44,399 nucleotides of DNA. Source: Paludibacteraceae bacterium. Lineage in GTDB: Bacteria > Bacteroidota > Bacteroidia > Bacteroidales > Paludibacteraceae. Positions 3,250 through 12,114 of the stretch are shown here, one piece after another. Position 1 is the first letter of the stretch; the number at the start of each line of letters is the position of its first letter. The notes below the pieces were generated by a model that saw nothing but the letters and a program-made list of their open reading frames with translations, ran no database searches and was not told the origin of the DNA. The translations under genes were made by a program, and so were the position numbers. The stretch covers positions 1 to 44,399 of the forward strand of contig JAFUEI010000045.1 in NCBI GenBank assembly GCA_017464025.1, given 5' to 3'.

Positions 3250-3339
3250 TATATGGTTGTTTGGTTTGTTTGCTTTTGCGGGCGGGGCTCCGGCTTGTCC
3301 TGTATTCCAGCAACTCAGGCTTATCCTGCTCTTCCGCAC

Positions 3340-3375
3340 AAAAAAAGCACCCTATACATAAATGTAAAGGATGCT
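3340..3375 (-). terminator. Attenuator terminator in the permease leader (copy A)
   Basis: Read on the minus strand: AGCATCC, TT, TACA, TTTA loop, TGTA, TA, GGGTGCT, then seven T. This is an intrinsic terminator placed 90 nt before the permease start codon, inside its 5' leader. The same two-part stem, with one compensated pair change, is at 8379-8413 before the adaptor gene. Its position between promoter and gene implies transcription attenuation rather than simple 3'-end formation. Confidence 0.8.
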
Positions 3376-3395
3376 GTACATGTCCGCTTTGTCCG

Positions 3396-3455
3396 TCAGC
3401 TGACGGGTCTGCGACTATTGTCTTGAACAACGAACTCCAATAAAGCAGGAGTCAT
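3396..3455 (-). CDS. Putative leader peptide of the permease leader (copy A), 19 aa
   Basis: ATG at 3455 opens MTPALLEFVVQDNSRRPVS and stops with TGA at 3396, 21 nt before the terminator stem. The first 28 nt of the coding region are identical to the leader upstream of the adaptor gene (8352-8474); the frames then part because copy A has one extra T. The start codon lies in a small hairpin, GGAG-ATGA-CTCC. The stop is inside a perfect 14-nt palindrome, CCGTCAGCTGACGG (3393-3406), that copy B lacks. A regulatory leader peptide is inferred from position and conservation; translation is not proven. Confidence 0.55.
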   Translation of the reverse strand: MTPALLEFVVQDNSRRPVS

Positions 3456-3467
3456 CTCCAGACACCT
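3411..3467 (-). repeat. Conserved leader block, copy A
   Basis: A 57-nt block that recurs at 8431-8486 with a single one-base indel as the only difference. Both copies are on the same strand, between a promoter and an intrinsic terminator, upstream of the two separate transcription units of one efflux pump. The flanks are much less alike, so the block itself seems to be under constraint or was recently converted between copies. Confidence 0.85.
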
Positions 3468-3482
3468 TTTGGTAAAACGGTG

Positions 3483-3514
3483 CAAAAGTACTGCTTTTTC
3501 CTGACATGGGCAAG
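3483..3514 (-). promoter_or_regulatory. Promoter of the RND permease unit
   Basis: Minus-strand TACTTTTG (3490-3483) fits the Bacteroides -7 consensus TAnnTTTG. A CTTG at 3514-3511, 20 nt upstream, is a one-mismatch -33 box. The start site would be near 3479, giving a 5' leader of about 230 nt that contains the leader peptide and terminator. Confidence 0.65.
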
Positions 3515-3653
3515 CAAAATCGAACAGAGTTTTGCCTGTACAGCCCTGTGTTTCGCCGGCACTGCTTGCGGCTCCGCGCCGTGATGACGGTTCTCTTGGA
3601 GCAAGGTCGGCTGTCCGGGCACAGGCTTCGGTGAGGGCTTCTTTTGGGGCTTG

Positions 3654-3684
3654 TTGTACATGTCAGAAATATATCGTACCTTTG
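3654..3684 (+). promoter_or_regulatory. Promoter of the small membrane-protein gene
   Basis: TACCTTTG at 3677-3684 is a perfect Bacteroides -7 box, with GTTG at 3654-3657 about 19 nt upstream. An ATG follows only 4 nt after the box (3689), so the transcript may be leaderless or nearly so. The promoter is divergent from the permease promoter. Confidence 0.6.
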
Positions 3685-3688
3685 CACT

Positions 3689-4048
3689 ATGTTTTCGTTC
3701 TGCAGAAAATACGTGATGCCGATGCTCCTGCTGATGCCGGTGCTGTTCGCCATAGCGCTGACTATAGACGAGTATAACGACCACCGTCGGGCGACGGAAG
3801 GCCTGCGTGTGGAAGTTTGCGCAGAGATAGAGGCGGTGGACTTGGAGTGGGACGGGAACGGGACGGACAACGGCGACGGACAGCTGATGCAGAGCGTGGC
3901 ACTGCAGCCGGAAAATGTGCCGGCCGGTACCGCCAGCCAGTCTGCCGGACAAAACGCGGCCCTCATGTCGGACGCTATGCGGCGAGGTCTGGTGCACCAC
4001 TATGCTCCCCTCAGAAACACACATAACATACACTATATACTGATATGA
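3689..4048 (+). CDS. Hypothetical small membrane-anchored protein
   Basis: I do not recognise this protein. From the ATG at 3689 it is 119 residues; an alternative start at 3716 gives 110. It has one N-terminal hydrophobic segment (MPMLLLMPVLFAIALTI) followed by a polar, Asp/Gly/Gln-rich tail with no cysteine motif. Support for a real gene: a consensus promoter directly upstream, a strong hairpin with a T-run directly downstream (4053-4086), and a position before the Na/phosphate symporter on the same strand. Against: antisense frames are also long here because of high G+C, and no family is apparent. It may be a small regulator or accessory of the transporter, or simply non-coding. Confidence 0.4.
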   Translation: MFSFCRKYVMPMLLLMPVLFAIALTIDEYNDHRRATEGLRVEVCAEIEAVDLEWDGNGTDNGDGQLMQSVALQPENVPAGTASQSAGQNAALMSDAMRRGLVHHYAPLRNTHNIHYILI

Positions 4049-4052
4049 CTGC

Positions 4053-4086
4053 ATGGTATAGACCCCGACGGGTTTATACCATTTTT
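4053..4086 (+). terminator. Strong hairpin with T-run between the small gene and the symporter
   Basis: Thirteen-base arms ATGGTATAGACCC and GGGTTTATACCAT (one G-T pair) enclose a 4-nt CGAC loop and are followed by TTTT. It starts 4 nt after the small gene's stop and ends 16 nt before the symporter ATG. I see no promoter in those 16 nt, so either the symporter is expressed only by read-through or the hairpin acts as a regulatory switch in its 5' region. Confidence 0.7.
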
Positions 4087-4102
4087 ATAACCCAATAACA
4101 CT

Positions 4103-5809
4103 ATGACACTTCTGTTACAGATTATCACGCTCATCGGTTCCGTAGCGATGCTCATGTACGGCATGAAGGTGATGAGTGAGGGCCTGCAGAAAATGGCAGG
4201 CAGCCGCCTGAGCAACGTGCTCGGGACAATGACCACCAACCGTTTTACAGGCGTACTGACCGGCACTTTCATTACGGCGGCCGTGCAGTCGTCCACAGCT
4301 ACAACGGTGATGACCGTGAGCTTCGTTTCGGCGGGCATCCTTTCGCTTGCGCAAGCCATCTCGGTCATTATGGGTGCCAACATAGGCACCACCTTCACGG
4401 CATGGATTATGGTGCTCGGCGGCGGCTCGTTCGACCTCAGACTGGTGGTATATACCACCATCGTGCTTGCCGTGGCGCTCATCTATACCAAGCGCAACGC
4501 CAACCTGGGCGACTTCCTCATCGGTCTGTCGCTGATGCTGCTCGGCCTGACGACGCTGAAGCTCAACGCCACCGAGATGCACCTCGACCAGCTGGCTCCC
4601 GTGCGCAACTTCTTCGTGGCGACTTCCAGCTGGGGCTACGGCAGCTATTTCCTTTATCTGTTAGTAGGTGGCATCCTGACCTTTGCCGTACAGTCGTCGG
4701 CAGCCATCATGGCTATCACTATGACGCTCTGCTCGACCCACGTGCTGCCTATTGATATGGGCATAGCGCTTGTATTAGGCGAGAACATCGGCACCACCAT
4801 CACGTCGAACGTGGTGGCGCTCTCCGCATCGGTGCAGGCTCGCCGTGCCGCCCTGGCACACCTGGTGTTCAACTTGTTCGGCGTCATCTGGGTGCTGTGT
4901 GTGTTCCGCTGGTTTGTGGGCGGCGTGTGCAACCTATGGGGTGTGGACTTCACGCCTGGTCTGCCGAGCGATGTGTCGCCCGACAAACTGAATGCCGTAC
5001 TGGCCACCTTCCATACTACCTTCAACGTCACCAACACCCTCATCCTGATATGGTTTGTTCCGCTGTTGGAGCGTCTTGTCACGTTTATCATCCCATCGAA
5101 GCCCGAGCAGAAAGATACCGACAGCCAGTTGCGCTTCATCTCCGGCGGTCTCATGTCAACCTCCGAGCTCTCAATCCTGCAGGCATGGAAAGAGGTGCAT
5201 GTCTTTGGTGTCCGCACCCAGCGCATGGTGGGCATGATTCACGACCTCTACCGTGAGCAGGACGATGCGCAGTTCACGGCCATATTCTCCCGTATAGAGA
5301 AATATGAGGGCATCTGCGACCGCATGGAGTATGAGATTGCACAGTATCTCAACCAGGTGGCCGACGGCCGTCTCTCCGACAACTCGAAGCACGAGGTGCA
5401 CAAGATGCTGCGTATCGTGGGTGAGCTGGAGTCGGTGGGTGATGCCAACTACAACCTCTCTCGCTATATCCGTCACAAGCACGACAATCATCTTGCCTAT
5501 ACCGAGTATCAGGACAAGAATGTTGAGATGATGCTTTATCTCGTGAGCGGGGCGGAGACCAAGATGGTGGAGGCGCTGGAACGCGGGCATATCACCGAGG
5601 ACGAGTTCCTTGAGATGACCAACATGGAGAACGAAATCAACAATTTCCGCGACGAACTGAAGACGCAGAACATGCAGCATATCACCGACAAGGAGTACGA
5701 CTATTCCACCGGCGTGAACTATATGGATATCATCCTTGAGATGGAGAAGATGGGCGACTACATTATCAACGTGGAAGAGGCCATCTACGAGCACAAGCAC
5801 GACAAGTAA
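4103..5809 (+). CDS. Na+/phosphate symporter family protein (PNaS) with PhoU-like C-terminal domain
   Basis: Inner-membrane sodium-coupled phosphate carrier family (NptA/Na_Pi_cotrans), 568 residues. The two inverted QSS repeats typical of the family are visible: QSSTATTVMTVSFV near residue 69 and QSSAAIMAITM near residue 197, each followed by a G-[AE]-N-I-G-T-T motif (GANIGTTFTAW and GENIGTTITSN). About eight hydrophobic segments fill the first 330 residues. The last 200 residues are soluble and helical, with the ELESVGDANYNLSRYI pattern of PhoU-like domains. Some bacterial members may work in phosphate efflux or control rather than uptake. The gene lies between the two halves of an RND pump on the opposite strand and ends at a bidirectional terminator. 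Confidence 0.93.
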   Translation: MTLLLQIITLIGSVAMLMYGMKVMSEGLQKMAGSRLSNVLGTMTTNRFTGVLTGTFITAAVQSSTATTVMTVSFVSAGILSLAQAISVIMGANIGTTFTAWIMVLGGGSFDLRLVVYTTIVLAVALIYTKRNANLGDFLIGLSLMLLGLTTLKLNATEMHLDQLAPVRNFFVATSSWGYGSYFLYLLVGGILTFAVQSSAAIMAITMTLCSTHVLPIDMGIALVLGENIGTTITSNVVALSASVQARRAALAHLVFNLFGVIWVLCVFRWFVGGVCNLWGVDFTPGLPSDVSPDKLNAVLATFHTTFNVTNTLILIWFVPLLERLVTFIIPSKPEQKDTDSQLRFISGGLMSTSELSILQAWKEVHVFGVRTQRMVGMIHDLYREQDDAQFTAIFSRIEKYEGICDRMEYEIAQYLNQVADGRLSDNSKHEVHKMLRIVGELESVGDANYNLSRYIRHKHDNHLAYTEYQDKNVEMMLYLVSGAETKMVEALERGHITEDEFLEMTNMENEINNFRDELKTQNMQHITDKEYDYSTGVNYMDIILEMEKMGDYIINVEEAIYEHKHDK

Positions 5810-5830
5810 GCCCAAGGGAAGCCGTCTGCA

Positions 5831-5870
5831 AAAAGCAACGGGAGACGCAAGCGCGTCTCCCGTTGCTTTT
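5831..5870. terminator. Bidirectional terminator between symporter and channel genes
   Basis: A perfect 18-bp stem (AAAAGCAACGGGAGACGC and its complement) with an AAGC loop. The A/T-ends give a T-run in both directions, serving the convergent symporter (plus) and outer-membrane channel (minus) genes. Confidence 0.9.
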
Positions 5871-5888
5871 GGTTGTTCCGGCTGGTTC

Positions 5889-7223
5889 TTACTTCACGCC
5901 TCCGCCGAGCGCTTGGTAAAGCTTCACTACGCCTTGCGCTTCGTCTAACCAGTCCTCCAGCTGCGAGGTCTGTGCGTCAAGCAATGCCTGTTGGGCATAA
6001 ATGACCTCCAGATAGGTTGTAGATCCGTTGTTCATCAGCGAGCGTGTTTTGTCCATAGCCCGGGTGAGGGCTTCTACCTGTTGCGTGTGCTGTTCGCGCT
6101 TGAGGCGGGCTGTTTGGCATTGCAGCAAGGCATCGTTCACCTCGCTGCCCGCCTTCAGCATCTGCTGCTCAAACTGCAGCAAGGCCTGTTCGTATTGCGC
6201 TTTTGAGATATCATAGTTGGCCTTGATGCCGCCGTGAGCGAAGATGGGTTGCACCAACGATCCGACGAGCGAGGGCACGAAAGCCCCCACGAAGGCGGCC
6301 GAGGCATCGATGCGGATGGATGGGAAGAACATGGAGCGGGCATGTTGCACGCCGTAGAAGTACTGCTCCAGATTATGCTCTGCCTGCCGCACATCCGGAC
6401 GGTTGCTGAGCAGTTGTGCCGACACGCCTACCTGCAACTCTTCCGGCAGTACCTGCGCCTGCATGGTGCCGCGCGCAATGGGTTGCGGCGGTTGCTTGAG
6501 CAGCAGACACAGTCCGTTCTCCACGTTGCGGATGCCCTCTTGCAAGTCCAGCACGCCGGCCTGTATGGCATAGCAGGTGGCCTGCGTCTGACTTACGCTC
6601 ACCTCGTTCATCATACCCGCCTCTTTCATCAGGTCCATCACACGCACTGTCTCCTGCCATTTGCGGGCGGTGGAGTCGGTAACGAGCAACAGTTGGTCCA
6701 TCATCAGCAGCTGGAAATACAGCGATGCCACGGTAGCCACTATCTGCGTCTGTGCCGCCTCGCGGATGTCCTGCGTCATGAGCAGGGACGCTCCGGCCTT
6801 GCGCTTTTGGTTGACCAGTTTGCCGAAGAGGTCAATCTCCCAGTCCATGGCCACGGGAATGGCATAGCCCCAGCCTTTCGCCGTCTCCGATATGTTGTAG
6901 CCGCCTTTCGGCGCAAACGTGAAACCGGGTACGAAGGCCAGTTTGGAGGCCTGGTAGCCAGCTTCCGCCTGACGTACGGCATATTCTAACGAGCGGAGGT
7001 CGCTGTTGCGTTCCAAGGCCGTTCCTATCAGAACTTGCAATTGCGGGTCGGTGAAGATCTCTTTGTAGGAGAGCGAGGCCAGCGTTGCGGAGTCGGTATT
7101 TTCTGTCACGCCGGTGCCGTACAGTCCTTCGCCTTTTATCTGTTCCGGACGGGAGTATTTGCCGTACAGCCCGCAGGAAGAGAGCATGGCGCCGAGGACC
7201 AATATATATACTATCCGTTTCAT
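5889..7223 (-). CDS. Outer-membrane efflux channel lipoprotein (TolC/OprM-NodT family)
   Basis: Outer-membrane exit duct of a tripartite efflux pump, 444 residues. The start MKRIVYILVLGAMLSSCGLYG is a lipoprotein signal with lipobox LSSC. The protein then has two similar helical OEP repeats; NSDLRSLEYAVRQAEAGYQASK in the first and RPDVRQAEHNLEQ in the second are the family's coiled-coil entry motifs. It lies 23 nt downstream of the adaptor gene, so the two are co-transcribed. The matching permease is not next in the operon but 2.6 kb away at 40-3249 under a duplicate leader. Confidence 0.93.
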   Translation of the reverse strand: MKRIVYILVLGAMLSSCGLYGKYSRPEQIKGEGLYGTGVTENTDSATLASLSYKEIFTDPQLQVLIGTALERNSDLRSLEYAVRQAEAGYQASKLAFVPGFTFAPKGGYNISETAKGWGYAIPVAMDWEIDLFGKLVNQKRKAGASLLMTQDIREAAQTQIVATVASLYFQLLMMDQLLLVTDSTARKWQETVRVMDLMKEAGMMNEVSVSQTQATCYAIQAGVLDLQEGIRNVENGLCLLLKQPPQPIARGTMQAQVLPEELQVGVSAQLLSNRPDVRQAEHNLEQYFYGVQHARSMFFPSIRIDASAAFVGAFVPSLVGSLVQPIFAHGGIKANYDISKAQYEQALLQFEQQMLKAGSEVNDALLQCQTARLKREQHTQQVEALTRAMDKTRSLMNNGSTTYLEVIYAQQALLDAQTSQLEDWLDEAQGVVKLYQALGGGVK

Positions 7224-7246
7224 TGTATAGTGTCTTGTCGTTTGTC

Positions 7247-8329
7247 TTATTCCACTTCCTCTCCATCACGTACCAGTCCTGCCCCTTCGGCGATGATGCG
7301 CTCGCCGGCTGTGAGGCCGCTGCTGACGATGTACTGCTTGCCGTCCGGCATGGCTTCCACTTGAATCAGGGTGGCAACCGCCTTGCCGTCAATGACGCGA
7401 TAGCAGAAAGTCTTGTTCTGAATCTCATAGGTGGCCGTCTGCGGTATGACGATGACGTTTTCCCTTGTCTCGGGGAGAACCACGTTGCATGAACCGCCTG
7501 ACAGCAGCAGCCGGTCGGGGTTGGGGAATACGGCACGCACGCTGACCGCCCCCGTTTGCTTGTCAATGATGCCGCTGATGCTCTCAATGCGCCCTTTGCA
7601 ATTGTAGGCGCTGCCGTCCGCCAGTTGCAAACTCAGGTCAGGCAACTCGTTGATGGCTTTGCCGATGCTTCCGTACTGTCGTACTAATGCGAGCATCTGC
7701 GCCTCTGTCATGGAGAAATACACGTACATCTCGCTGTTGTCGCTCACCGTCGTCAAGGGCTCCGGCATCTGCGGCGACACAAGCGAGCCTACGCGGAACG
7801 GCAGACGCCCCACCACGCCGTTGCAGGGCGCTTTCACCGTGCAGTAGCTCAGGTTCTGGCGTGCGTTGGTCACGCTGGCTTCAGCCTGTGCCAGACCGGC
7901 GCGCGCCGTGAGCAACTGGTTCTCCGCCACGCGCAGGTCGTACTCTGATATTACTTTCTCTTCGTACAGCTTCTGCTTTGAGGAGTAGGTCAGCTCGTTG
8001 GTCTTCACGGCTGCTTGGGCAGCCTCCACGTTTGCTTCCGCTACACGCAACGCGGCTTCGAAGTTCACGCGGTCGATTTCAAACAGCGGTTGGTTCAGTT
8101 TCACCTGCTGCCCTTCCGACACGCACAACTTGGTAAGGAAGCCCCCCACCTGCGGCAGAATCATGATGTCCTGCTTGCCCTGTATGGCCGCACTGTAGCG
8201 GGCGGACAGACTGACGGCGGACGGTGTGGCACTTATGATGTTGCGTTCCGCTTGTGGATGGTTCTCGGGCTGTTTGTGGCAGCCGCAGCAGAGCAGCACG
8301 GCCGCCAGAATAATGGTAATCTTTTTCAT
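7247..8329 (-). CDS. RND efflux periplasmic adaptor lipoprotein (AcrA/HlyD family)
   Basis: Membrane-fusion protein that links permease and outer-membrane channel, 360 residues. The signal peptide MKKITIILAAVLLCCGC ends in a lipobox with Cys17. The order then fits the family: a beta-barrel entry and biotinyl-lipoyl half (QVGGFLTKLCVSEGQQVKLNQPLFEID), a coiled-coil hairpin rich in Ala/Gln/Glu (about residues 90-145), the second lipoyl half (VKAPCNGVVGRLPFRVGSLV), then barrel and membrane-proximal domains. It is the first gene of the adaptor-channel unit, expressed from the promoter at 8518-8549 through the copy B attenuator leader. Confidence 0.95.
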   Translation of the reverse strand: MKKITIILAAVLLCCGCHKQPENHPQAERNIISATPSAVSLSARYSAAIQGKQDIMILPQVGGFLTKLCVSEGQQVKLNQPLFEIDRVNFEAALRVAEANVEAAQAAVKTNELTYSSKQKLYEEKVISEYDLRVAENQLLTARAGLAQAEASVTNARQNLSYCTVKAPCNGVVGRLPFRVGSLVSPQMPEPLTTVSDNSEMYVYFSMTEAQMLALVRQYGSIGKAINELPDLSLQLADGSAYNCKGRIESISGIIDKQTGAVSVRAVFPNPDRLLLSGGSCNVVLPETRENVIVIPQTATYEIQNKTFCYRVIDGKAVATLIQVEAMPDGKQYIVSSGLTAGERIIAEGAGLVRDGEEVE

Positions 8330-8351
8330 ATATTTGTTATTGTTCTGTTCT

Positions 8352-8474
8352 CTATTCTCTAATCATGCGGTCTCGCACAAAAAAAGCAACCGATACATAC
8401 TGTAAAGGTTGCTGTACATGTTCGCGCAGGGCGACTATTGTCTTGACAACGAACTCCAATAAAGCAGGAGTCAT
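8352..8474 (-). CDS. Putative leader peptide of the adaptor leader (copy B), 40 aa
   Basis: ATG at 8474 opens MTPALLEFVVKTIVALREHV and the frame runs on to 8352, straight through the terminator hairpin at 8379-8413. The first ten residues equal those of copy A; a one-base deletion then shifts the frame. Because the frame spans the terminator, a translating ribosome would physically prevent the hairpin from forming, a layout suited to translation-coupled attenuation of pump expression. Translation is not shown. Confidence 0.5.
   Translation of the reverse strand: MTPALLEFVVKTIVALREHVQQPLQYVSVAFFVRDRMIRE
8379..8413 (-). terminator. Attenuator terminator in the adaptor leader (copy B)
   Basis: Minus strand: AGCAACC, TT, TACA, GTA loop, TGTA, TC, GGTTGCT, then seven T. 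The outer stem differs from copy A at one pair (A-T here, T-G there), so pairing is kept; the inner TACA/TGTA stem is identical. It lies 50 nt before the adaptor start codon. Confidence 0.85.
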
Positions 8475-8486
8475 CTCCAGACACCT
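8431..8486 (-). repeat. Conserved leader block, copy B
   Basis: The 56-nt partner of 3411-3467, lacking one base. It contains the leader-peptide start and the alternating GGAG / CTCC / GGAG segments, which can form two mutually exclusive small hairpins around the start codon. Confidence 0.85.
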
Positions 8487-8517
8487 TCTGTTTCCGGCTT
8501 TTCCTAAAAAGCGGGTG

Positions 8518-8549
8518 CAAAGGTAGTGCTTTTTTTCGGAACGGGCAAA
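8518..8549 (-). promoter_or_regulatory. Promoter of the adaptor-channel unit
   Basis: Minus-strand TACCTTTG (8525-8518) and TTTG (8549-8546) separated by 20 nt: a full Bacteroides promoter. The expected 5' leader is about 185 nt and holds the leader peptide and terminator. Confidence 0.8.
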
Positions 8550-10023: not shown

Positions 10024-12114
10024 TTACGAGATGGTGCTCCAGTCCACGGCGTGTTGCTTGAGACGGTGCAGCTGGTTGACAAGCAGGCTGTTCTTGCTCA
10101 TCTGCAGTTCGGGGTCTTCGTCTAATATGTCGGATGCGGCATGGCGTGCCAGTTCCAGCAGTTGTCCGTCGGTGGAGAGCGAGGCTATCTTCAGTTCGAA
10201 GGGCAGTCCCGACTGCTGGGTGCCTTCCAAGTCGCCCGGACCACGCAACTGCAAGTCGGCTTCTGCGATGCGGAAACCGTCGTTGGTGGCTACCATGATG
10301 TCCATGCGTTTGCGGGTGTCTTTGCTCAGCTCGGTTCTGGTCAGCAGGATGCAGTAGCTCTGTTCCGCTCCGCGGCCTACGCGCCCTCTGAGCTGGTGCA
10401 ACTGGCTCAAGCCGAACCGTTCGGCGTTTTCCACCACCATCACGCTCGCATTGGGTACGTTTACACCCACTTCGATCACCGTAGTGGCCACCAGTATCTG
10501 CGTCTCTCCGCGCGCAAAGCGCTGCATGTGTTCGTCTTTCTCTTTGGCTTTCATCTTGCCGTGCACCATGCTTACGCGGCAGTCGGGAAAGTGCTCCTGC
10601 ATGTAGCGGTAGCCGTTCTCAAGGTCCACAAGGTCGCTCTTCTTGTTCTCCTCTATGAGGGGATATACCACGTATATCTGCCTGCCTTGCTGTATCTGTT
10701 CGCGCAGGAAGCGGTTGATGCTGTCACGCCGCAACTGGGTGTAATGCAGGGTCTGGATGGGTTTGCGTCCGGGAGGCAGCTCGTCAATCACCGATACTGA
10801 CAGGTCGCCATATACCGTCATGGCGAGCGTACGCGGGATAGGGGTGGCTGTCATGACGAGTACATGCGGCGGATTGATGTTTTTGGTCCATAGCTTTGCA
10901 CGCTGTGCTACGCCGAAGCGGTGCTGTTCGTCCACAATCACCAAGCCGAGGTTGCCGAATTGCACCGTGTCTTCTATCAGCGCATGCGTGCCTATCAGAA
11001 TGTCAATCTGCCCTGCCATCAGGGCTTCGTGCAACGGTTCCCGTTGTTTTTTTGTGGTGCTGCCGGTCAGAAGGGCTATACGCACCCCGGTGCCTTCCAG
11101 CATGTGGCTGATGGTTTCCATGTGCTGGTTGGCCAGTATCTCTGTCGGGGCCATGATGCAGGTCTGGAAACCGTTGTCTTTGGCGAGCAAGGCCACCAGC
11201 AGCGCCACCAGCGTCTTGCCCGAGCCTACATCGCCTTGCAGCAGGCGGTTCATCTGCCGCCCCGACTTGAGGTCTGCCTGTATCTCTTTTACTACCCGCT
11301 TCTGTGCATTGGTCAGCGGGAAGGGCAGATGGTGGAAGTAGAAATCGTTGAAGGCGGTGCCCACACGCGGCATCAGGAAGCCGCCGGCCTGCTGTTCACG
11401 GCGCTTCACCTGCCTGAGTATCTGCAGCTGGATATAGAACAACTCCTCGAATTTCAGGCGCTCGCGTGCCTTTCGTAATGCGGCCTGGTCTTTTGGGAAA
11501 TGGATGTTGAGCAGGCTGTTGGTCAGGTCTGTCAGGTGATACTGCTCCCGCAAAGCCAGCGGCAGCGTGTCAGGAATGCCTTGCTTGAGGTCAGGCATCA
11601 GTGCAGCGATGATTTTCCGCATCGCTTTCGAGTTGAGCCAGCCGGCTTTCATCTCACCCGACGTGTTGTAGTGCGGCTCCAACCCTTTTCGCGTCTCCGG
11701 ATTTACTTTGCTCAGCAGTTCCAGTTCAGGGTGGACGATGTTGTACTGGTGGTTGTAGTACGACGGTTTGCCAAAGGCGATGTATTTCACGCCGCGCTGC
11801 AGTTTCAGGTACTGAATGCCTTTGAACCACACCAGTTCGATGCTGTCGTCACCGTCCGTAAATTCAGCGCTGAGACGTTGTCCCCGTCCGGCACCGATAA
11901 TGTGCCAGTCGCGCAGTTCGCCGATGATTTGCACGTAGGTCTCCGTGTCTTCTATCTCACGGATGCGGTAGAACCGGCTGCGGTCGATGTATTTGTAGGG
12001 GAATACGTACAGCAAGTCCAGTGCGGTCTGCACCTTCAGTTCCTTCTTCAGCATCCCGGCCCGTTTCGGACCGACCCCCGGAAGGTAGGTGATATCTCGT
12101 TGCGATAGTTCCAC
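10024..12114 (-). CDS. recG: ATP-dependent DNA helicase RecG
   Basis: Branch-migration helicase that remodels stalled forks and Holliday junctions; cytoplasmic, 696 residues, normal length. The wedge/OB domain fills the first 250 residues, starting at LPGVGPKRAGMLKKEL. Walker A GDVGSGKT is at 294-301, the DEQH box at 395-398, then TATPIPRT and the C-terminal helicase motifs HQLRGRVGRG and GLSQ. The start codon is GTG at 12114. It follows an esterase gene by 19 nt on the same strand and probably shares its transcript. Confidence 0.97.
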   Translation of the reverse strand: MELSQRDITYLPGVGPKRAGMLKKELKVQTALDLLYVFPYKYIDRSRFYRIREIEDTETYVQIIGELRDWHIIGAGRGQRLSAEFTDGDDSIELVWFKGIQYLKLQRGVKYIAFGKPSYYNHQYNIVHPELELLSKVNPETRKGLEPHYNTSGEMKAGWLNSKAMRKIIAALMPDLKQGIPDTLPLALREQYHLTDLTNSLLNIHFPKDQAALRKARERLKFEELFYIQLQILRQVKRREQQAGGFLMPRVGTAFNDFYFHHLPFPLTNAQKRVVKEIQADLKSGRQMNRLLQGDVGSGKTLVALLVALLAKDNGFQTCIMAPTEILANQHMETISHMLEGTGVRIALLTGSTTKKQREPLHEALMAGQIDILIGTHALIEDTVQFGNLGLVIVDEQHRFGVAQRAKLWTKNINPPHVLVMTATPIPRTLAMTVYGDLSVSVIDELPPGRKPIQTLHYTQLRRDSINRFLREQIQQGRQIYVVYPLIEENKKSDLVDLENGYRYMQEHFPDCRVSMVHGKMKAKEKDEHMQRFARGETQILVATTVIEVGVNVPNASVMVVENAERFGLSQLHQLRGRVGRGAEQSYCILLTRTELSKDTRKRMDIMVATNDGFRIAEADLQLRGPGDLEGTQQSGLPFELKIASLSTDGQLLELARHAASDILDEDPELQMSKNSLLVNQLHRLKQHAVDWSTIS

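Follow-up and report, generated by a model that had tools for sequence, protein, structure and literature searches.

The two halves of a split RND efflux pump in the window (the whole stretch of DNA analysed, 44,399 nt) are each preceded by a copy of the same leader, here called class A, in which a conserved hairpin block is followed by an intrinsic terminator, and we hold with moderate confidence that this leader is a cis-acting transcription attenuator of the pump, its two near-identical copies giving both transcription units one control. As judged from sequence comparison, the twin leader is probably a genuine on/off switch, though a rare one. Within the window's own assembly (89.44% complete) blastn recovered these two copies only.

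Both units lie on the minus strand (Table 1). Unit 1 consists of a promoter, the leader and the gene for the RND permease, and unit 2 of a promoter, the leader and the genes for the membrane-fusion protein (MFP) and the outer-membrane efflux protein (OMF); the permease gene is cut off from MFP-OMF by a plus-strand Na/Pi cotransporter gene, and each part has its own leader. The split pump with its second leader copy looks like a derived state, because the pump forms one unsplit MFP-OMF-RND run in the relatives G623 and G674, and the simplest account would be that the leader was copied at the time of the operon split. The cotransporter gene has an upstream region with a TACCTTTGCA promoter at 3677 (+), an ORF that ends at 4048, and a T-tailed hairpin of 13 pairs at 4053-4082, directly before the gene start at 4103; this element (3677-4102, plus strand) is possibly another attenuator or a simple terminator, and the hairpin scan behind it found 7 sites compared with 5.3 in shuffles.

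Table 1. Coordinates of the leader elements and pump genes in the window, and of the class B leaders of related pumps.
Feature	Position	Strand	Basis or remark
Promoter -7 element, unit 1, TACTTTTG / TACTTTTGCA	3481..3490	-	exact match to TANNTTTGCA
Promoter -7 element, unit 2, TACCTTTG / TACCTTTGCA	8516..8525	-	promoter pattern scan
Conserved block 1, unit 1, AGGTGNNTRGAGRTGACTYCTGCTTTATWGRAGTT	3433..3470	-	alignment A1; R1 model matches
Conserved block 1, unit 2	8452..8489	-	alignment; R1 model matches
Hairpin H1 in block 1, unit 1; 6 pairs including one G-U, 9-nt loop UGCUUUAUU	3433..3453	-	CUCC:GGAG core in predicted fold
Hairpin H1 in block 1, unit 2	8452..8472	-	CUCC:GGAG core in predicted fold
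Leader ORF, unit 1, 19 aa, MTPALLEFVVQDNSRRPVS	3396..3455	-	only about the first 5 codons common to the 4 copies
Leader ORF, unit 2, 40 aa, extends through terminator	8352..8474	-	
Conserved block 2, unit 1: GGACATGTACAG flank and intrinsic terminator (3340-3375)	3337..3385	-	
Conserved block 2, unit 2: GAACATGTACAG flank and intrinsic terminator (8379-8413)	8376..8423	-	
RND inner-membrane permease, AcrB-type, 1069 aa	40..3249	-	PF00873 E 4.4e-280; RND permease models
Na/Pi cotransporter gene, between pump units, outside leader	4103..5809	+	PF02690
Outer-membrane efflux protein (OMF), gene 2 of unit 2	5889..7223	-	PF02321
Membrane-fusion protein (MFP), gene 1 of unit 2	7247..8329	-	PF16576; TIGR01730
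Class B leaders before orthologous pump	L126:1003-1075, L049:7763-7835, L048:10560-10632		

The first-pass annotation had described a TAnnTTTG promoter, a shared block and an intrinsic terminator before the first gene of each unit, and all of these are present on the minus strand. The promoter pattern TANNTTTGCA occurs 7 times in the window, where 1.13 matches would be expected. Positions 3427-3466 and 8446-8485 share an identical 40-nt core; no such match arose in 100 shuffles, and the core has no further match within the window. The near-identical block, first put at 56/57 nt, is indeed duplicated and differs by a single 1-nt indel, its measured length from AAGGTG to AGTCGC being 58 and 57 nt in the two copies. 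The linker between this block and the second shared stretch (ACATGTACAG plus terminator) is 18 nt longer in unit 1 than in unit 2. The terminators of units 1 and 2 reach -14.1 and -12.3 kcal/mol with 7 U, and their stems (AGCAUCC/GGGUGCU and AGCAACC/GGUUGCU) differ, as had been noticed at first sight, by a U-G to A-U change that keeps the pairing; a generic terminator scan reports neither of them because it allows loops of 3-8 nt only. A third leader match at 10687-10708 (22 nt, E 0.06), inside a recG-like gene, is at chance level and was rejected.

A covariance model of block 1 (R1), built from the two window copies and those of the relatives G622 and G138, matched strongly (68-74 bits) in three genomes, the same ones whether 178 genus genomes or 358 family genomes were searched. 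The class A carriers are thus the window genome with two copies and G138 and G622 with one each (four copies, three species), and every strong match lies before this pump, the single copies directly before a related, orthologous, unsplit MFP-RND operon. The first-pass annotation had named an absence of copies before efflux genes in other genomes as grounds for dropping the idea, and two other species have the leader before the orthologous pump operon; its expectation of many copies across Bacteroidales was not borne out, since the leader occurs in 3/358 family genomes and, with up to 3 mismatches allowed, in its own genome only among 393 order genomes. At the thresholds used, 7/178 genus genomes pass E 0.05 and 4/358 family genomes pass E 0.002. 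Weaker R1 matches (22-30 bits) in five other genomes (G684, G724, G604, G659, G051) never precede a pump; in four of the five they lie within or antisense to an ORF, and the one in G604 is intergenic past a gene end, spans no more than the 5' half and lacks the H1 hairpin, so that all were rejected. A probe of ACATGTACAG followed after 15-45 nt by TTTTTTTGTG (U-run) matched three times in 151 genus genomes, always before this pump, with 0 matches for the reversed control; the probe would miss G138, which reads ACACGTACAG. An exact pattern scan covering 84,980 species, each represented by a single genome, found four stretches, in the relative G138 (SIG114, SUXC01000003.1), Methanoregula, Fictibacillus and Chitinophaga, with a pattern that fixed both stem arms and could therefore not find G622; viral contigs and plasmids yielded 0 matches each. 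In 200 family genomes blastn returned the own genome, G138 and, in G015 and G064, short stretches of 22 and 29 nt that both overlap long ORFs and were rejected. Separately, a CCC-UGUUUAU-GGG hairpin lies soon after the promoter of related pumps of another family, f109, upstream of the MFP gene (L120, L121, L100); its loop is class A-like, but neither block 2 nor a terminator was seen, and we treat it as a lead only.

The conservation pattern within block 1 bears on the nature of the sensor. The loop UGCUUUAUW and the flank AGGUG are invariant among the four copies. The sole change in the H1 stem, C-G to U-A in G622, keeps the pairing and alters two amino acids of the overlapping ORF (P to S, E to K), in an alignment of only four sequences whose H1 pair count is reached by 115/500 shuffles. 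None of codons 1-7 differs at its third position among the four copies (codon 8 varies), although the fourfold-degenerate sites of the RND gene are saturated, their identity to the window being 37.2% for G138 and 44.3% for G622 (RND protein identity 57.0% and 56.2%). This constraint at the RNA rather than the peptide level, together with the fixed loop and the once-compensated stem, speaks for a metabolite-binding riboswitch or a protein-binding antiterminator, in which the block 1 hairpin is a binding site and the ORF is incidental. Such an element overlaps the attenuator that we favour, the sensor being what differs, and we consider it somewhat unlikely: the start codon is preserved through an A-to-G change, the block is short for an aptamer, and Rfam gave 0 window matches at the gathering threshold. 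The best sub-threshold bacterial Rfam matches were PyrG_leader (21.1 of 65), PyrR (20 of 54) and Fluoride (12.3 and 11.8 of 34), none of which recurs in the G622 and G138 leaders at E up to 2; a fluoride riboswitch, sub-threshold in both window copies and absent from the relatives, was rejected.

A classical leader-peptide attenuator, in which the MTPALLEFVV... peptide is read out and a ribosome stalling within it frees an antiterminator, appears improbable. It would account for the start codon being kept in 4/4 copies (ATG three times, GTG once) and for the common residues M/V-T-(P/S)-A-L, and control of this kind is described for a multidrug transporter, bmrCD, in passages of PMC4191407. However, the ORFs are 19 (MTPALLEFVVQDNSRRPVS, unit 1), 40 (unit 2), 20 (MTSALLKFTPQRIKDRFAER, G622) and 5 aa long, the last being VTPAL-stop in G138, where TAG stands in place of the TTG of the others, and the stop codon falls before or beyond the terminator depending on the copy. 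The invariant third positions and the paired stem change with its two altered amino acids also stand against a peptide that is read out. In the window itself the residues MTPALLEFVV are present in both copies, as first annotated, but the frames diverge after codon 10 (19 vs 40 aa), and the duplication therefore does not extend to the whole peptide. Across the carriers conservation of the peptide ends at codon 5-6, so that a conserved leader peptide of the bmrB kind was not found among the four copies. We infer selection on the RNA itself, the start codon being retained, and the probable sensor is an RNA hairpin surrounding a very short ORF, because of the frame shift, the VTPAL-stop copy, the invariant third positions and the compensatory stem change that alters both amino acids. 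A 'leader peptide' recognised from a single genome can thus disappear on comparison, with the RNA persisting.

Candidate helices for a switch between block 1 and block 2 were examined, and none held up against a control. With the leader folded up to the 5' arm of the terminator, an AGGU:ACCU helix has a pair probability of 0.98 in unit 2, about 0.005 in unit 1, 0.13 in G622 and 0.06-0.08 in G138. AAGG:CCUU (UAGG:CCUA in G622) is the only 4-pair inter-block helix that is kept in 4/4 copies with a double change, and it fails its control, 16% of column shuffles matching it; the antiterminators AGG:CCU and GUGU:GUAC likewise did not pass the column-shuffle control and were rejected. The leader of unit 1 folds with z -2.93 relative to shuffles and that of unit 2 with z -1.40, the latter no better than shuffles.

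In the transcription attenuator that we favour, RNA polymerase would start at the TAnnTTTG promoter and transcribe the 5' sensor, that is, block 1 with AGGUG, the start codon and the six-pair hairpin with its fixed loop, with the intrinsic terminator in block 2 as its default stopping point. Read-through into the pump genes would follow from an inducing event at block 1, and the duplicated leader would place both the separated permease gene and the MFP-OMF unit under shared control. The inducing event may, tentatively, be the arrival of a ribosome on the initial five or six codons, M-T-(P/S)-A-L; these are located within the hairpin, and their occupation would open it. A ligand or protein binding the hairpin is nearly as likely. 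Of the attenuator originally proposed for the pump, an attenuator-like leader on both halves is supported, and a leader peptide MTPALLEFVV is not.

Both blocks are kept in the four copies of the three species, and each of the six pairs of class A leaders scores above 300/300 shuffles. In the block 1 alignment 28 of 52 columns are invariant, all of them in columns 4-38, and the linker varies in sequence and length, GTACAG standing 58 to 227 nt past the start codon. Terminators (-10 to -19 kcal/mol, 5-7 U) were found in 4/4 class A leaders, no farther than 250 nt from the gene start, and in 2/80 other MFP upstream regions (250 nt; 23 other genus pumps and 57 from the order). The 80 do not include four genus orthologues that lack class A, which were scored separately: a terminator is absent in G674, G623 and G111, and G593 has one upstream of its -7 element. 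RNAalifold found no consensus pairs in block 2, in a MAFFT alignment that had the stems out of register. The leaders have two features of an intrinsic-terminator attenuator, a terminator between promoter and first gene and a conserved upstream sensor domain. That there is no regulation at all, an ordinary promoter-proximal terminator and 5' region having been copied along with the promoter in a gene rearrangement, would suit the near identity of the two copies, which may be young, but is quite improbable when both blocks, and not the linkers, are kept in two distant single-copy relatives and terminators are so rare before other pumps. A trans-acting small RNA, with the two copies raising its dose and the pump expressed by read-through only, would fit the conserved hairpin loop and strong terminator but is very improbable, as the strong R1 matches lie directly before this pump only, in 3/178 genus genomes.

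Orthologous pumps of three other genomes (G674, G593 and G623) carry a different hairpin leader, class B, with the loop GUGAAUCURYAAGA (GTGAATCTRYAAGA). Its stems change, with 1/5 pairs broken in G674, and no terminator follows the hairpin; a class B model (R2) matched these three and no other of the 178 genus genomes (E up to 0.02). A single family comprising both classes is not supported: for every A-B pair, 42/300 shuffles or more score as high, and neither model finds the other class. The orthologous MFP (at least 48% identity) is present in nine genus genomes, the broken gene of G622 included (L046:6680-7781, two overlapping frames, either an assembly error or decay). In G594 and G633 the region upstream of the pump is cut by contig ends, and where the upstream DNA is complete (seven genomes) the leader is class A in three, class B in three and neither in one (G111). 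The window's permease clusters with those of the class B carriers G623 and G593 in the RND tree (98/97), apart from the class A carriers G138 and G622 (100/100). A single class B clade is rejected (RND p-AU 0.015, MFP p-AU 0.0001) and the leader type requires at least two changes, both with G594 excluded for lack of a leader call; with G594 included the rejection is stronger but less apt. The class B group tested was picked after viewing a tree, the MFP of G622 entered as its first piece only, and pump parts recombine, the neighbours of G593's MFP in the trees differing from those of its RND. Leader type is at odds with the pump trees, and these comparisons support an exchange of leaders, short of proof because of the group choice, the recombination and the partial G622 sequence.

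The operon itself is a mosaic, with the gene orders RND-MFP-OMF, MFP-RND-OMF and MFP-OMF-RND and OMF identities of 38-88% (L047, L049, L050, L051, L132). The gene upstream of the pump encodes a DUF4421 protein in the window, a glycosyltransferase in G138, an ABC protein in G622, an ATPase in G593 and a PAP2 protein in G623. An AraC-type (HTH_18) regulator lies upstream of the pump in G111 (no leader; L051:9861-10751) and G674 (class B; L126:87-851). On this side no regulator was found at the three class A pumps, nor at the class B pumps of G593 and G623, and its absence is therefore not special to class A. It is possible, though we regard it as doubtful, that an undescribed class A RNA sensor controls the RND pump, is exchanged with an undescribed class B leader and was copied onto the second half at the operon split, the leaders being portable modules that follow pump parts.

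If the leader works as proposed, these bacteria may sense a cue by RNA and turn on a tripartite efflux pump in response, and the doubled leader on a split operon would be a natural example of co-regulation kept after rearrangement. Among the matches listed in the open-licence PMC literature, none concerned a conserved RNA attenuator before a Bacteroidales RND pump. The RND pump BVU_1673-1675 of Phocaeicola vulgatus is likewise a Bacteroidales RND pump with induced expression, its transcript rising up to 39.88-fold with dicumarol according to passages of PMC12694919; there, however, deletion of the adjoining putative regulator BVU_1672 abolished the induced protection, and the word 'leader' is absent from the text. 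In Bacteroides thetaiotaomicron, transcripts with long 5' UTRs contain sORFs 'reminiscent of leader peptides', in the wording of a passage of PMC7366714. A close parallel in arrangement is bmrB-bmrCD of Bacillus subtilis, a ribosome-mediated transcriptional attenuator, in which the operon of a multidrug transporter is likewise preceded by a leader with a small ORF and an intrinsic terminator. As the passages of PMC4191407 on this system describe it, bmrCD is an ABC exporter of a Firmicute, bmrB must be translated, its coding region contains the terminator and three alternative stem-loops are formed, whereas in the window leader the peptide is not conserved, the antiterminator is a candidate only and two copies serve one pump. 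Attenuators are further described as able to 'hop' between genes, hisS switching its sensing systems, in the corresponding passages of PMC2965389, and the change of leader type on orthologous pump genes is of the same kind; the transporter passages of that paper concern ABC transporters, and its main text contains neither 'efflux' nor 'Bacteroid'. Attenuation of drug transporters and leaders that move or switch are thus known, and to these the class A leader, as a putative attenuator, is an added member.
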